A stretch of DNA of 64,000 nucleotides from Oidiodendron maius Zn. Its lineage: Eukaryota > Ascomycota > Leotiomycetes > Myxotrichaceae. Both the position numbers and the translations under genes were made by a program. Shown here in pieces: positions 23,808 to 34,079 of the stretch. Position 1 is the first letter of the stretch. Every line of letters starts with the position of its first letter. The DNA lies in the NCBI GenBank assembly GCA_000827325.1, contig KN832875.1, positions 744,001 to 808,000 of the forward strand, given 5' to 3'. The notes under the pieces are model-generated. The model was not told the origin of the DNA. It saw only the letters and a program-made list of their open reading frames with translations, and did not search any database.

Positions 23808-26601
23808 CTAATTGACGAAGAACCCATCCTCCGCCGTGCCTTGAGATCTCTCTCCCCTGGCCCCGTGCGCGAAGGCGGTATTGTCGAAGCGCGGGACGTC
23901 GAAGGTACCCTCTGGATCCCTCCCTGTACTCATGATATAGTTCTGCACCTTGGTAACCTGATGTCTGATGTCGCCCAGCAGGGTCGCCATGTCCAGTGCG
24001 ACCTTGGGGTTGATCTTCGCACCACTCCTGATAGCCGCCTCGACAACGTGATATCGACTCACGCAATTGCGGAGCATCATGTCGAAGGGTGTGGTGGTGC
24101 TACCTTCCTCCTTGTAGCACTGGATGGTGACTCTGTCCAAATTCTTCCTCCCGAAGAGAAGCCCCTTGATCTCGTTCGAGTAGCCGTGATAGTTGAAATG
24201 GATGGGGCGATCGGAGGTAAAGAGGCTGTCGAATTCTCCCACGGTGAGAGCATGTGGGTGCACAGTCTCGGATTCTAGGATCATGAGATCAGTGACGTTG
24301 ATGACCCGGACCCGGAGGGAGGGGCATATGCGGCGGATGATGGCTGCTGCGACGACAACTTCGAACATGAGCTCCGAGCCGATCCCGACAAGGACCACAT
24401 CCGGATTGAGGCCATCATCGGTGCTACAGAACTTCCACACGCTGGCTCCAGCTTGGCAGTGCTTCTCAGCCTCTTCGACCGAAAGAAAGACGGGCTGCGG
24501 CTGTTTAGAGCCGACCATCAGGTTGACGTAATTCTTCGAGCGGAGACAGTGAGCCACTGTTGAGAGAAAAGTATTCTAGTGCAATTAGCAGGTGCATGGT
24601 CTACAACCATCAAAATAACGTACCGCATCAGGCGGGAGGTAGACACGAGCCGCAGTGGGCTTCAAGTTAAGCACAGCTCCGATGAAGGAGGGATTCTGAT
24701 GGGAAAATCCATTGTGCTCCTGGCGTGTCCAAGTACTGGTCTCTATATAGTTGATGCTGGAGATGTCGGTTCTCCAGTTAGTTTCTTTGGCCATTTTATT
24801 GAACTTGCTGTACTGCACCATCATTGTGTGGATGATACCCAGGAAGCTCTCATAGCTGGGGAAGATTCCAGTTCGACCGGTCAATGTATAGCCCTGCATG
24901 AAGCCCTGGCAGGTATGCTCGCTGAGGATTTCGATGACTCGTCCACCTCTGGCATTGGAAAACTCATCCCATTGGAAATTGCGCCCGGTATGCTCGAAGA
25001 CAGCGTCAATCTTATTGCTTACCAACTCATCCGGAGAGAAGAGTCTAAGAGTCGTTGGGTTATCGACCAACGCTTGATCAATTAGTCTGCCTATTGCTTT
25101 CATGCAGGATTCCTCTGATCCCTTTTCAACACCGAATTTCTTCCAGTCGGGAACCGTCAAGGGCTCATAACACTTGTAGGTTTCAGGGCGCTGGCCAATT
25201 CTCAGGTGCTCGGGTGGTAGTATTGCCTTGATCGAGTCAACGATGTCACCTGACTTGGTGAAGAGTTTGGATGGCCCGTAGGACAGTAGCCAGCTCTGGA
25301 GGTCTGCCAGCTGTCCCTTGTCACTCTTTGCGGCCATCAATGGGACCTGATGAGCGTGGAAGGATCCTTCAACAAATTCTCCGTTGACCTTCTTAGGCCC
25401 GCTCCACCCTTTTGGAGTTCGCATGATCAATACTGGCCACTGAGTTCCTGTATTAGTTTCCATTTTATCATTCCAGCGTAAATTGATACTCACTTTAGGC
25501 TTCATAATAGGTTTTCCAGTGCGGGCTAACTTCTGTATTTTACGGATTTCATTAAGAGCCCACTGCATGCTCGTAGCAAGGTCAAGATCCTAGACTGGTC
25601 AGCAACGATTCCAACTCTTTAACTTGCGCTTACAATAGAGTCCAGATCTTCGACAAATCGGCACTGGTACCCATAGCCTGTAAAGAGCGATGCTAGCTCC
25701 TTGTTATCCATGCACCCATAGATAGTGCGTTCTGATATCTTGAATCCATTTACGTGGACAATAGGAATGACTGCTCCAGACTCAGCTGGATCAATATACT
25801 TCGCGGCATGCCAAGCTGTGGCAGTTGGACCGCTTTCTGCCTCTCCATCACCGACAATACAAGCCACAATTAGGTCTGGCTTGTCCATGACTGCGCCGTA
25901 TGCGACCGACAGAGCATACCCTAGCTCGCCTCCCTCATGAATCGCTCCTGGGGTCTCCGCATTAATGTGGCTGGGGAAACCAGAAGGCGTACTGAAACGG
26001 CTAATGAGATTCGAGAGCCCTTGTTTGTTCATCGAATACTGAGGGTAGAATTTCTCTAAACTTCCTTCCAGCCAGAGGGAGGCCAAGATTGCAGGTGCGC
26101 CATGACCAGGACCGACAACATAAATCAAGTCAAGATCGTTATTGCGAGTAAGGAGATTGAGATGTGCATATACAAGAGTAAGGCCAGGACAAGTTCCCCA
26201 ATGCCCAAGTAATCTAAATTAATTTATGAGTCTCGGAATAATTTGTGAGACTGCTTATAATGTACTAGCAGTACGCACCTTGGTTTTATGTCATCGAAAG
26301 TAATATTTCTCTCAAGTAAAGCGTTTCCGCGGAGAAAGATCATTGCTAACAGAGTTAGTTATGAGACCTGGTAATTGCAGAGGGGGATAAAAAGTGAGGG
26401 TTGACAATGGGCATTTGTCTGGGGAAAAATCTCCCTACCAGCAGCGATGTAATTGCTCGCCCTTCTGAACTCTTCGAGCCCTTGCAGGTCACCATCGCTG
26501 AGCTTCACATTCTGGAGCTTAATTGCCAAATCCGTGACATAATCGGGTATATGGGAAGGTAATGGCTGCGGGTTTGGCCTGTCAATAATCTCTCCGGGCA
26601 T
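23808..26601 (-). CDS. Xylulose-5-phosphate/fructose-6-phosphate phosphoketolase
   Basis: Six exons: complement(join(23808..24575,24624..25439,25494..25589,25634..26213,26279..26345,26439..26601)), 829 aa. This ThDP enzyme cleaves xylulose-5-P or fructose-6-P with phosphate to acetyl-phosphate plus glyceraldehyde-3-P or erythrose-4-P. The translation shows IKPRLLGHWGTCPGL (residues ~75-88), VGPGHGAP (~110-117), the ThDP/Mg motif GDGEAESGP (~198-206) and SFHAHQVP. The Pyr-domain part has WRTDISSINYIETSTWTRQEHNGFSHQNPS over ~500-540, and the C-terminal domain includes FDMMLRNCVSRYHV. All five introns restore phase and family sequence, for example PPDA|NTFLSTVAHCLR. It lies head to head with acetate kinase, which would use its acetyl-phosphate product. 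It is probably cytosolic, as no targeting signal is visible. Confidence 0.96.
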
Positions 26602-27082: not shown

Positions 27083-28390
27083 ATGTCGAAAATAATACTC
27101 TCCATCAACGCCGGGTCCAGCTCTGTCAAAATCTCCGTATTCTTGGCCTCGCATGGCCAAGAACCTGTGGAGTTGGCCGAGACCCAGGTCGATGGCTTGA
27201 CTGCCCCCCCTCCTCGATTAAGTTATACCAGGGCCGGAGGCCGCATTGCCAAAGGGAGGGACATTGACAAGGCGATATCTTCCCAAAATGATGCCTTCCA
27301 ATACATGCTCGGCGAGTTGATTAATGATCCAGGTTTTAAGGAGATAAATAGCAGGGAAGATATACCCATTGCGTGTCACAGAGTGGTGCACGGCGGCGAT
27401 TTTGATCGACCACAACTTATAACGCGAGCCACGTACAACCAGCTCGAAGATCTCACCGATCTAGCACCTCTGCACAACTCGTCAGCGCTCGAGATTGTCA
27501 GATTCTGCATCAAGGAATTGCCCAAGACCAGGAATGTAGCTGTGTTTGACAGCCAGTTCCATCAATCGATTCCGGAGCATATCCGAACATACCCTATCAA
27601 TCAAGAGATCGCGAAGAAGAATAAGTTAAGGAAGTATGGGTTCCACGGCATCAGTTACTCATTCATCACGCGAAGCGTGGCTCAGTTTCTCGGCAAGAAG
27701 CAGGACCAGACAAATCTGATAATCCTACATCTGGGAAGTGGTGCCAGTGTATGTGCCGTGAAGAAAGGGAGGAGCTGGGATACTAGCATGGGATTGACAC
27801 CGTTGGCGGGCCTACCTGGTGCTACAAGGAGTGGAAGCTTGGATCCCAGGTATTCTCCCTTTGTCAAGTAATGCGGGAGGAGAGCTGATAGATAATTCTA
27901 CAGCTTAGTCTTCCATTACGCAACAAACGTAGGAAAACTCTCCCCATCCTCGACGGGGAGTCTTCACATCTCTCGAGCAGAAGAGATACTGAACAAGGAG
28001 TCAGGGTGGAAGTCTATAACAGGAACCACCAATTTTGGAGACATCGCATCTTCTGATGACCCCGATAAGAAACTTGCGTTCGAGATCTTTGTAAATAGGA
28101 TCTCGGGCTATGTGGGGAATTATTACGTCTCTTTGCATGGAGAAGTTGATGCACTGGTATTCGCCGGCGGGATCGGCGAAAAGAGCGACAAGTTGAGACA
28201 GAGAGTTACGGATGATATAGGTTGCTTGGGGTTTGTAGCTGATAAAGACTTGAATCGAAAGCCGATTGAGGACGTGGTTCAGGAGATAGGCGAGAATGGC
28301 GCAAGGCATCGGACTTTCGTCTGCCGGACAAATGAGCAGTTTGAAATGGCACGATACTGCGCTGTCAACGAAGAGCTTTTTAACGGATAG
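27083..28390 (+). CDS. Acetate kinase
   Basis: Two exons, join(27083..27849,27904..28390), 417 aa. It interconverts acetyl-phosphate plus ADP with acetate plus ATP. Family signatures are SINAGSSSVKISVF (residues 7-20), CHRVVHGGD (98-106), AVFDSQFHQSIP (153-164, where many members have FDTAFH), YGFHGISY (185-192), HLGSGASVCA (216-225) and, in exon 2, FAGGIGEKS. The 54-nt intron joins SGSLDP-AG|C to give SLVFHYATNVGKLSPSS, as in homologues. It is divergently paired with phosphoketolase, so together they form a route from pentose or hexose phosphates to acetate and ATP. Acetate kinase is uncommon in eukaryotes. An ancient bacterial origin is commonly considered but is not shown by this sequence alone. 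Confidence 0.96.
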
Positions 28391-28738: not shown

Positions 28739-30941
28739 TTATGGTAGGCCGTAACCTCCATTAATTGCATCGGCGAGCTCCGATGTATTTGGGCGATTCT
28801 GGGCATAACGTTCGTAACTATCGATGTACAGTTCATCCAAGCTTGTTGTTGCCTTTACGTGCTCATTATTTTCCACGGCATCTATCCACCGCGCCCACCG
28901 GCTGCCTGGAGTCGGATTTGGCCAGGAGCGATAATGCTTTAGAACTCTAGATAGTCGAATCATCCAGGGTGCAAACTGGATATCGACAAATGACAAGTGC
29001 GATCCGAGGAAGAATGGCCCGTGTGGGTCACTAACTTCGACAACCTTGCTAATTTCCGCATGAAGCTTCTTTGTATTCTCTGCCTGCTTGCCAAAGTCCT
29101 GGGCTTGCAGAACGCTGTAGAAAGCAGGGATAATTTTACGATTGATCTGTGTCAAGTCAGCATCTAGTGTCTTGGGTGTTTTGCAAGAACATACATGGTC
29201 ACTCCAAAGTCTACAAGAAGCTCGGAGTTGGGCATTTCCTAGTGGCAGGAGGGGCTGTCCTATATTAAGATCCTCCAACTATAGTAATGGTCAACATTTA
29301 TAGATCGGAGGGGAAGAGGGAAGTTGCATACGTATTCCATCAAGACCGTGCTTTCTCCGCATGCCCAATCGCCATGACGGAGAGCAGGTACCAACCCTCG
29401 AGGATTAACCTCAAGAAGAGCTTGTGGTTTCTTATACGGATCAACCTCAATATATTGATATGGTAAACCTTTAGCCTCCAATGCAATCCATACTCGCTGC
29501 ACGAATGGACTAAGCAACATATTAATCAAGCGGCCAAATGAATTGAGGACGCTCTGCTGCTGCCAAGACTCACCAGAAGCAGCTTCCAAACAGCTTTAAT
29601 CCGTCTTCCTTAGAGTGCATCCTAACGGTCGTCAGAGCATTGCCGCTAGCCTTCTTGTGATACGTTTTTTCTTGCTTCAGGGTGTCAGTAAAAAGGCTTA
29701 TTATGGTGGGCTGGCAGGCGCCAAATTCAAGTTGATGCTTCAAGGCTCCAGACAGTGAGAGATAAAAGGCACAAGAGCAAAATACCAACCTGAGTCTTCT
29801 TCTCTTCCTTGTCCCTTTTCATCGAATAACGCTGGACGCTATTCTTCTTAACCCGATCGCTCTCCAATAAGCCATGCTTGTGAGGGCCAGCAACTCCATC
29901 GCTTTTGCCGTTCCCGCCATTACCATTGACACGTTGGATTGTATAGTACCGTTGTCCAGTGGCTCCAGGGTGGTTGGGCGGAATGCCGGAACCGACCGGC
30001 ATCATGCCAAACTGCTGTTGCTGATCCACTACTTGTCCTGGTTGCCCAGGTGCAAAGAAATTATTTGCTTGAGCGTCCGGTTGCGCCCCGTCTGGCGTAA
30101 AGTCTGGTCGTAACATAGCGCCTGGAAAGTATTCTGTAATCTTAATCTTAACATCACAGAGATCGCGTTCTCGGGCAGTGCGCTTGCGCTTCTTCTTATT
30201 CGGGTCGTTGGACTTGGGAGTTCCAGGAGGGCGTCCTTTTAGTCGGCAGTCCCAGTAATGAGAAACAAATGGCTTGCGCTTGTAGCGTTGAGTAGAACGA
30301 TGAGAGTAAACGTTATCAACGTGGGGGAAGTATGTCTCGAACCTGCAACAATGGTTTAAATATGCATCGCTAACACGTTATACAAACACTTACTCTTCCT
30401 CGCTGAGGGTAATTATTTCGTCCACATTGAATAACTTTTGACGCCACTCCGCAAGGTTAGGTGGGTCAACAACGATTTTTGTACTGAGATGGCCATTGCT
30501 CTTTTGATCGGAGCCATCTGGCAAACCAAATATATCGTCCTCCTGCTGTAATCGACCGATTGAATTATGCTGAATAGAGCCAGTCGTCAAGATGCCGAAC
30601 TGTCCGCCTGGGTTACCACTATGTTGATGAGGGGTATGTGGGCCGTTGGTGTTTTGGACTGGGATGGGTCGGTGTCCATGGCTTCGATCAAAGGGGTTTG
30701 GAGGTTGAAACGCATGGGTATTTGGGTCCTGTAGTCGCAGGTCCGCGTGAAATACCGGGTCATGGTCGTCAAGGCCAGCAAGGTCAAGACCGGCTTGAGA
30801 TGCTAGAGTGTGGTGAGACAGATGTGCTTGCCCATGTTGGATTGTCTGAGGAGCTTGCGGCTGCAGCGAGCGGTATGTAGACGGCAGTTGCTGGTGAAGG
30901 ACTGAATCCGCCTCCATTTTGGCAGATTGAGCACGGCGCAT
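28739..30941 (-). CDS. AT-hook-like basic protein fused to omega-like glutathione S-transferase
   Basis: Model complement(join(28739..29146,29195..29278,29332..29509,29574..29674,29790..30342,30394..30941)), 623 aa. The C-terminal ~240 residues are a thioredoxin-fold GST with a Cys-Pro-Phe active site (LKLFGSCFCPFVQRVWIALE), [26 protein letters not shown] and an alpha-helical domain ending AINGGYGLP. Upstream is a Gln/His/Pro-rich region, then FETYFPHVDNVYSHRSTQRY, KPFVSHYWDC, GRPPGTPKSNDPNKKKRKR (AT-hook-like plus nuclear signal-like) and DVKIKITEYFPGA. The joining intron (29675-29789) has a GTTGGT donor, a CTGAC branch site and an AAG acceptor; it yields KKTQ|QEKTYHKKASGNALTTV, in frame with the GST. 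Alternative: two genes, with the upstream one ending at 29727 and the GST starting at ATG 29620. The upstream start (30941 or 30917) is uncertain, and another 5' exon is possible. Confidence 0.68.
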
Positions 30942-31218: not shown

Positions 31219-34079
31219 TTACGTACTCGGCTCGGGAGCACTGTGAGCAGAACCTCCCCTCATGGAAGACTTGGCGGCGCCAGTGTATTCCAAGAACGGA
31301 ATAGTTATGCCGTAGCTTTGTGTCCGCCCATCCTTATCATGCTGGTCTTTCTCGACTCTGATGCAGACATCGAGACTACCATCAGTGGCCTTGCCATGCC
31401 TCTCACTATCTGCCGCTCTATGCTGTGTTCCTGCATTGGTCTCGCCTATGTGAAGCCATGAGTGCCCATCTTTGACTTTCGACGCCGTGGCAGCTTGCGG
31501 ATCGTCATTGCCATTAGATGCATGCCCGTTAACTGTATTGGCCTGTGCTGCTACGGCCGGTCCATGATTCTCGGTGATCATGGCCCAATTCCGGCTCGGC
31601 ATTGTAACATGATTGAAGCGTGCAGTCCTGACCTCCTTGCCAGGATCCTTGTCAAAGAAGTTCATAAGGGTTTCATCCGTGTCGTCATCCAAATGGTGAA
31701 TCTTATTTCTTCTTGCTAGAAGGTTGGCAACCGCTTGGGGCGGAGGCTTGTTCACTATGGCAGAAGAGATGATATTTGTGATATATCGATGGTCATTTAG
31801 AACAGGTATCTGCAGTTCGGGATTGGAGTAAAAACGGCCAACCGCCGCCAGATGGACATCTCCACCAAGGATAGTAATGCGGACGGAGAATTCGGAGGCA
31901 AGAGTTTGGAGTTGGTGAACAAGATAGGCGCGCTCCTTTTTATGAGTTCGGGCTGTGTAGTGGTCGTCCAGATCATCCAACAAATCGACACCTCCGTCGA
32001 ATGAGTTGAAGAAACTACCACCTATTAAGGATGAGTATCGATCAATTCAACAACAGCGATAGGAATCACTTACCAAATCCAAATCTTTTGTTAAGAAATT
32101 TCAACGGACCCATCAAGGGACTCGAAAAGATATTCTCAAGCCAGGTCAATCGCTAACACAGTTAGTGAGAATGCAAAAGGCGCGTGTCAGAAAATACTAA
32201 CTGGGTACGCGATGGGAATTCCCAATAGAACTATCAGATGGCGTATGGGCGATGGCGAAGATTGGGCTGCCTCAAGCTCGTAGCGCAAGCGAGAGAATAT
32301 TATTTGGTAAGTCTCTGGATAGTTGACTTGCCTTCGAGTACGCTGAAAATGTCAGTTTGGCCAGTTTTATCATCGCAAAGCATACCTCTGTTCGAGCATC
32401 AATTCCAAAGAAGGCAATCCGAGCGCCAAGTCTAGCATATATACTACGAGAATGTTCTGCCACATACGGCTTCAAATACATTAGCATGTATGGTATATTC
32501 ACAACTTTTGACTTACTCCAGGCTTGGGACCGATAATATAGCTAGGATCGGTAGTCTTTTCTTCAAGGACAAAGGTGTTTTCTAGTTGCCTTGGATCAAC
32601 AATACCATCTGTAGTAGAGGCTCCTTCGGGTAGATCTAGAAAATCTCAGCACAGCCCTATTGTACATGCTAGACTATCCCACCTGATGTGTAAGTCGAAA
32701 CTGGTGGCGCAAGATGATGCTGGAATAGCAGGTAGTATTTGTGGGCCACACCTCCGATACCACGGAAGACGTCGCACTGCATGAAGTCGTCGACGTAGGA
32801 GCCGAACCCGTCAATTATCTGTTGGATTATTAGTTTAGCCGCGCAAGAGATACAACTGGTAGTTTCTCAGTCGTCAGAAGAATCAACCAACATCATGATC
32901 ATCCCATATATTCAATTGCGGGATCTGTCCATTTGCAGCGGAAAAGGGTTCCGTCCCGTACCTGAAGTGAATTAGCTAGCTACATTCTTATCGAGGCTCA
33001 ACCTCAACAGTTTCAAACTCACCATCTAATATAATTATTCACATAGAACTCGTCACAGCTCTTCCGCAATTCTTCATGAAAAGGGAAATCTCTCCTCTTT
33101 TTGGGATTGGCGATATCCGTCCAAGGTCTCAATGGGCCAGTTACCCTGATGCCATCATTATAGATCTGATCACCGCCCCCAATCCTACAATCACTTAGTT
33201 AGAGAATCATACCTCTGATCACGACACTTACATGACATGAAAGGGAGACTTTGCGTGTACTCGTCCAACATCATTCCAGAGAGCTGGGCCGCTCCATGCA
33301 GCCTCATCCGTTCCGACACTGAAACCATTGCACGAGTGGAACATTATCCTCATGGAATCAGAAATGGCCGGAACGAAAAAGCTCTGCCTATCGGTCTTCA
33401 TGCCATGTGTGAAGGTGAGCCCTGGTATGCTATAGACACAGCGTAGTTCTACCTGTTGCATAGGGACCTGTAAACTGAATCGCCAGAATGTATGGCGAGG
33501 ATCGGAATACAACCTTGTGCCATGAACGATTGTCTGTTCACTCCCTTCGCTCTCTGCTAGTTGAGCACCTGAAGTAGATTCTAACCCATCTATTAACGAA
33601 ATCTGCGGCGCAATCGATCCTGATATTTGCGTGCGAGCACCTGTCTTCAATCTCAGCTCGGGAACAGACGTGTCGCCCAACTCTCCACCTTTTGTCACAA
33701 TTAAGACGCTTCCAAACCACGTCGCATTTTCCATGCGCCTATAGTTCAGCAGTGGTCCACACACCACTTCTGTGGTGGCTCCGTTGGCCTGGACGGTCTG
33801 CGCCGGACGTGTTCCTCGTGCAGCTCCCCCAGCGACAGCTATAGGTGTGTATCTGGGCCCCGACGCTGAAGAAGTGGGCTCGTGTTTCGGTTCTACTCTC
33901 GACCCTTTAAGGAAATCCGAGAGATCTCCTGTGTCACCCCTTTGATCTGCATCGCGCGGAGCTTGAGCTGCGTGCTTCGCGAAGGATGTCGATTCTTGAT
34001 GGCGCCAGCGATTCTGAGAGGCGTGGGTGCCGGAATGGTCGCGCCCATGGCGGATGTTGTCGCCCAGGTGAGAGGCCAT
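31219..34079 (-). CDS. PhoD-like metallophosphatase
   Basis: Nine exons: complement(join(31219..32021,32074..32152,32202..32342,32386..32469,32517..32635,32683..32818,32892..32961,33023..33184,33232..34079)), 813 aa. PhoD-like enzymes hydrolyse phosphate esters with metal ions; the substrate here is unknown. Metal-site motifs are MIGGGDQIYNDGI (around 283-295), LNIWDDHD (353-360), ARTERTRRQVNYPETYQ and ITILGGDVHLAAVGRFY (596-612). The N-terminal ~110 residues are polar and probably disordered. There is no clear signal peptide, unlike secreted bacterial PhoD, so an intracellular location is likely. Every join keeps phase and rebuilds family sequence. The exact 3' end could differ: a GTACGT donor-like site overlaps the stop region, so one more exon cannot be excluded. 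Confidence 0.88.

Follow-up and report, generated by a model that had tools for sequence, protein, structure and literature searches.

A predicted fungal protein in which an omega-like glutathione transferase is probably joined in frame to a basic, AT-hook-like front half

Fungal cysteine-type glutathione transferases (GSTs) are usually described as small, free-standing enzymes that serve detoxification and redox balance (PMC3815920, which also deals with the yeast Gto proteins). The nearest solved chain found for the protein described here in a PDB search (E = 5.6e-51) was 6srb chain A, a protein of 261 aa that bears the PDB label 'Uncharacterized protein'. Like our predicted protein it has a Cys-Pro active site and a helical domain, and it matched residues 372-619, including an extension that precedes the apparent GST start codon. 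In contrast to our protein, the deposited chain, which is possibly a trimmed construct, consists of the GST only and lacks the basic N-terminal half. The omega-class GSTs (human GSTO1; yeast Gto1-3) have the Cys-Pro-Phe sequence and the glutathione-site residues in common with our protein (alignment to 3lfl, E = 8.8e-18); whereas, the GSTO1 chains that were matched (240-247 aa) have no DNA-binding-like half. GST folds are used in gene regulation in Ure2p and SspA, as we propose for the fusion; however, to our knowledge both of these proteins act via partner proteins and have no DNA-binding segment of their own. SspA also gave the best NCBIfam score, at 52.1 of 314 bits, which is far under the cut-off. 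Among the matches listed from the full-text literature, no title concerned a GST joined to a DNA-binding-like half, and the available parts of PMC4470081, PMC3815920, and PMC5981210 made no mention of fungal GSTs that have a DNA-binding half fused to them.

We analyzed a stretch of 64,000 nucleotides (contig KN832875.1, positions 744,001 to 808,000; referred to as the window) from the Oidiodendron maius Zn genome assembly, which comprises 45.9 Mb in 58 contigs and contains genes with short introns. A preliminary description of this DNA had claimed that an AT-hook-like basic protein is spliced in frame to an omega-like GST in a model of 623 aa. The six exons of the model have a coding length of 1872 nt, and give exactly 623 aa and a stop codon. 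The features, in window coordinates, are:

30394..30941, minus strand: exon 1, Q/N/H/P/G/S-rich N-terminus, probably disordered
30917, minus strand: second in-frame ATG of exon 1, residue 9
30343..30393, minus strand: intron 1, 51 nt, GTAAGT..CAG, containing an in-frame stop
29790..30342, minus strand: exon 2, encoding the basic domain, residues about 184-367
30282..30326, minus strand: block PHVDNVYSHRSTQRY, residues 189-203
30213..30236, minus strand: AT-hook-like GRPPGTPK, residues 219-226
30180..30197, minus strand: nuclear-signal-like KKKRKR, residues 232-237
29820..29822, minus strand: internal in-frame ATG, residue 357, possible start of a 267-aa GST-only product via the same splice
29675..29789, minus strand: key intron 2, 115 nt, GTTGGT..TACTGAC..AAG
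29574..29674, minus strand: exon 3, N-terminal extension and first GST strand
29621..29662, minus strand: GST N-terminal extension YHKKASGNALTTVR, residues 372-385, 6srb-like, upstream of the apparent ATG at 29620
29332..29509, minus strand: exon 4, Cys-Pro-Phe helix and glutathione site
29195..29278, minus strand: exon 5, of the GST
28739..29146, minus strand: exon 6, GST helical domain and stop

Apart from the key intron, the gene has four introns, of 48-64 nt, with donors GTAAGT, GTGAGT, GTATGC or GTATGT and acceptors CAG or TAG. Intron 3 (29573-29510) splits the codon for the catalytic Cys401 into 29575-29574 and 29509. A PhoD-related phosphatase gene (31219-31983, minus strand; PF19050, E = 1.2e-15) is the upstream neighbor on this strand, some 280 bp from where the fusion gene starts. 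Downstream there is a convergent acetate kinase gene, made up of two open reading frames (ORFs) within 27083-28390 on the plus strand (PF00871), and adjoining and divergent from it are phosphoketolase-like pieces, named by eye, in two ORFs at 23808-25568 on the minus strand. The pairing of the phosphoketolase-like ORFs with the acetate kinase gene is consistent with an acetate-making pathway.

As judged from its sequence, the region from residue 372 to residue 623 is a complete cysteine-type GST, which is omega-like in the broad sense; its best PDB matches are a mixture of omega, thiol-dependent reductase, DHAR, and tau chains. In the C-terminal half, Pfam searches detected GST_N_3 (E = 5e-23; 81.7 bits, cut-off 22) and GST_C_2 (E = 2.8e-7; 31 bits, cut-off 24.9), and thus both the N-terminal thioredoxin-like domain and the helical C-terminal GST domain passed the cut-offs; the matches to the Pfam GST models began at residues 393-400. 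When the alignment with 3lfl was counted by hand, C401-P-F, K428, V441, E453, and S454 fell opposite C32, K59, V72, E85, and S86, which we take to be the catalytic cysteine and glutathione-site residues of GSTO1. Retention of the Cys-Pro-Phe active site and of these residues bears out, in the broad sense, the earlier designation of this half as omega-like. A search of the organism's own genome yielded five other matches, all of them to the GST half, with identities of 26-44%. At locus L009 (1366-3009, plus strand), the first half of a 547-aa ORF matches GST and a second GST-like segment was seen by eye in its second half; this ORF possibly encodes a tandem GST protein.

The front half begins with a disordered-looking arm (residues 1-150, 53% Q/N/H/P/G/S), followed by a basic domain at residues about 155-367. 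Within the latter, residues 200-245 are 35% Lys/Arg and contain both GRPPGTPK and KKKRKR, residues 261-310 form a low-complexity linker, and residues 311-367 make up a second basic stretch (23% Lys/Arg). GRPPGTPK, KKKRKR, and the block PHVDNVYSHRSTQRY were all present as had been claimed. The GRP core lies in a basic setting, KGRPPGTPK and then KKKRKR. A basic residue plus GRP followed by four basic residues within 12 occurred in none of 53 predicted proteins in a sample of this genome, and a basic residue plus GRP alone in two of them; these comparison proteins came from the strictest gene-finder setting, and some are surely imperfect. The term 'AT-hook-like' stands as a description of the motif GRPPGTPK, but the Pfam AT_hook model gave no reported match at E up to 10, a search in which HMMER's filters discard the majority of matches with E beyond about 0.1. 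The AT-hook-like and nuclear-signal-like segments are therefore treated here as motif resemblances only.

Searches with the front half gave no relative in the collections used. In Pfam nothing rose above noise, the best match being PF22941 for a 61-aa core (E = 0.34, 11.5 of 27 bits), which we took as chance; NCBIfam gave no match at E up to 0.1; the sole PDB match to the basic half was a ribosomal protein at E = 0.4; and in the organism's genome, searched to E = 10, the basic part had no other copy. Scans of viral contigs produced 31 pattern matches to the basic domain, none of them a relative, and none to the GST half; scans of prokaryote genomes produced 138 and 18 pattern matches, respectively, again with no relative. 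As both of these collections are non-fungal, the scans say nothing about fungal homologues.

The main evidence for an in-frame join comes from the residues that precede the apparent GST start. The 6srb alignment starts at residue 372, 14 residues ahead of Met386 (29620), the apparent GST start, and over residues 372-385 there are 6 identities in 14 positions and a BLOSUM62 score of 25. Only 4 of the 76,348 stop-free 14-mers in the six frames of the window reached a score of 25 or more (mean -11.2, SD 7.2), and the segment itself is presumably among the four. Upstream, no stop interrupts the GST frame until the one that bounds it at 29818, and 29620 is the sole ATG within it. As 6srb-like residues precede the only in-frame ATG, the GST would require an upstream exon spliced onto it, or a non-AUG start. 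Exon 2 of the basic gene ends in phase at GTTGGT, just where the GST stretch needs a preceding exon. The codon log-odds of the 54 nt before the ATG at 29620 were +2.54 in the GST's own frame versus -7.85 and -4.04 in the other frames, whereas those of the putative intron 2 were -2.33 and -4.28 in the two relevant frames; these values are noisy on short pieces, as the 47 nt after the ATG, which are coding by homology, gave -2.59 and exon 5 gave -2.0 in their own frames. The earlier remark that coding-like residues continue upstream of 29620 was thus borne out both by the similarity to 6srb and by the codon log-odds. An alignment of 4ags upstream of the ATG was discounted because that part of the chain resembles a purification tag. 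The chain 4px1 also aligned from residue 372, and was left out as support.

The splice signals themselves were present as had been described, with the donor GTTGGT at 29789, a branch-like TACTGAC, an AAG acceptor ending at 29675, and an in-phase join. TACTGAC precedes the acceptor by 10 nt and is followed by 29675 as the first AG; its score was mid-range, at about the 35th-55th percentile of training introns (51, 36, 55, and 39 in the four settings). GTTGGT was the top-scoring donor among the best 15 of 86 in-phase joins. With 86 in-phase GT..AG joins available in the examined region, agreement in phase is by itself weak evidence. The 29789/29675 pair ranked 7th of the 86 by splice-signal score; in three of the joins above it the same donor was paired with another AAG acceptor (ending at 29654, 29609, or 29651), and the other three were 29785/29671, 29923/29671, and 29772/29622. 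As the same donor scores higher with later AAG acceptors, 29675 is to be regarded as one candidate acceptor only.

For comparison with other introns of this genome we used a gene finder self-trained on 260.6 kb of its sequence, with the target region excluded, at four strict settings; the training set was small. In the small sets of training introns obtained (n = 77, 42, 80, and 33), GTTGGT ranked at percentiles 13, 7, 8, and 6 by donor score; the acceptor of the key intron scored at percentile 0 in all four. GTTGGT was the donor in 1/77, 0/42, 0/80, and 0/33 of these introns, and AAG the acceptor in 8/77, 4/42, 8/80, and 3/33. A laxer run called 320 introns in 64 genes, which is implausibly many; it was excluded from the decision and kept for the donor and acceptor counts (3/320 and 47/320, respectively). 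With its 115 nt the key intron exceeds in length the four other introns of the gene, as well as about 95% of those used for training (fraction of at least 115 nt, 0.038-0.061). The claim of an in-frame fusion is the best reading, as 6srb-like GST residues occur before the single in-frame ATG, but its donor and acceptor score weakly.

These weak signals bear on two other arrangements of the locus. If there were two separate genes, the basic protein would end at 29727 and the GST would start at the ATG at 29620. The gene finder chose two genes in all four settings, with the same outcome when the key intron was forbidden; moreover, a start at 29620 would keep the whole thioredoxin-like domain, as the Pfam models begin only at residues 393-400. 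However, the residues before 29620 resemble 6srb and are coding-like, and the intergenic gap would be merely 106 bp (from the stop ending at 29727 to the ATG at 29620), which would be tight for same-strand neighbor genes in a fungus. In addition, the gene finder's own GST model started at 29520, inside intron 3, and lacked the catalytic Cys401; since its GST loses the catalytic cysteine, the program was wrong at the GST start under either model. We consider two separate genes improbable. The weakness of intron 2 also allows one locus with two products. The intron would be spliced to give the 623-aa fusion or retained to give a 387-aa basic protein ending ..VGILLLCLLSLTVWSLEAST, as read-through from exon 2 reaches the stop at 29727 after 20 extra residues; or else a second promoter and the ATG at 29822 would give, via the same splice, a stand-alone GST that starts at residue 357. 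The length of that product, 267 aa, is near the 261 aa of 6srb, but the ATG at 29822 is in a poor context, with T at -3. This arrangement seems to us a possible, if rather unlikely, alternative. We conclude that one gene probably encodes the basic front half and the GST in a single protein, the join being likely, in part perhaps with alternative products.

A further proposal, compatible with the fusion, concerns the nature of the front half, which could be a zinc finger of the FAR1/WRKY-GCM1 kind with Cys215, Cys245, and His337-x-His339 as ligands and the AT-hook-like segment as a loop, possibly derived from a Mutator-like transposon. FAR1-type domains (PF03101) occur in this genome above the cut-off at L010 and L011 and below it at L012; by eye, L011 and L012 adjoin transposase-like ORFs, a context that suggests the presence of Mutator-like elements. 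The likeness of the front half to L010 and L011, again by eye, is in spacing and flanks, with C-x29-C, then alternating hydrophobics, an aromatic strand, and H-x-H. However, His337 lies about 90 residues past Cys245 and a long insertion would be needed, and the Pfam search of the front half gave no FAR1 match. A profile was built from L010 and L011, with L012 left out because it was below the family cut-off and its halves were, by eye, in different ORFs. This two-sequence profile gave the linker-removed domain 3.7 bits, a score reached by 60 of 1983 scored shuffles (2000 made), and gave 0.7 with the linker and -0.3 for the full N-terminus. Thus neither Pfam nor the profile of the two in-genome copies identified a FAR1/WRKY-GCM1 finger with C-C-H-H ligands, and we regard such a finger as doubtful.

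The properties of the fusion protein suggest how it might work. The available comparisons support an enzyme half that is intact, a front half that is basic and motif-bearing, and a GST frame that extends upstream of its apparent start and would need a preceding exon. The six-exon gene would yield a 623-aa protein with a Q/N/H/P-rich arm, a basic domain, and an omega-like GST. The basic part would bring the protein into the nucleus and onto DNA or chromatin, and the GST half, GSTs being dimeric, would dimerize it. Cys401, together with glutathione, might then add glutathione to nearby protein thiols or, more likely, remove it from them by reduction of mixed disulphides, or it might read the glutathione redox state. 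We infer the nuclear location, the DNA binding, and the redox-regulatory role from motifs and similarities in the predicted protein. Taken as a whole, a single 623-aa fusion with its basic half at DNA or chromatin and a redox-active GST half is the explanation that we favor, with moderate confidence. Much more speculative is the idea of a redox enzyme within a DNA-binding regulator, in which the GST would sense or set the glutathione state either of Cys401 or of thiols carried by the attached domain and by chromatin; glutathione status would thereby switch gene control within a single polypeptide. The attached domain would then represent a DNA-binding fold not yet described, perhaps a FAR1-type finger that has diverged.

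Long fungal GST proteins with such an N-terminus, to which the preliminary description had alluded, may exist, and it is quite possible that sequence databases already list the fusion protein as a GST-domain protein without a name. If fused orthologues are common in sequence collections, the gene would belong to an ordinary but undescribed family. The fusion, if true, would add a domain that has no match in the copy of Pfam searched; and with a GST fixed to a basic, nuclear-looking domain, glutathione chemistry on chromatin would become directly testable.
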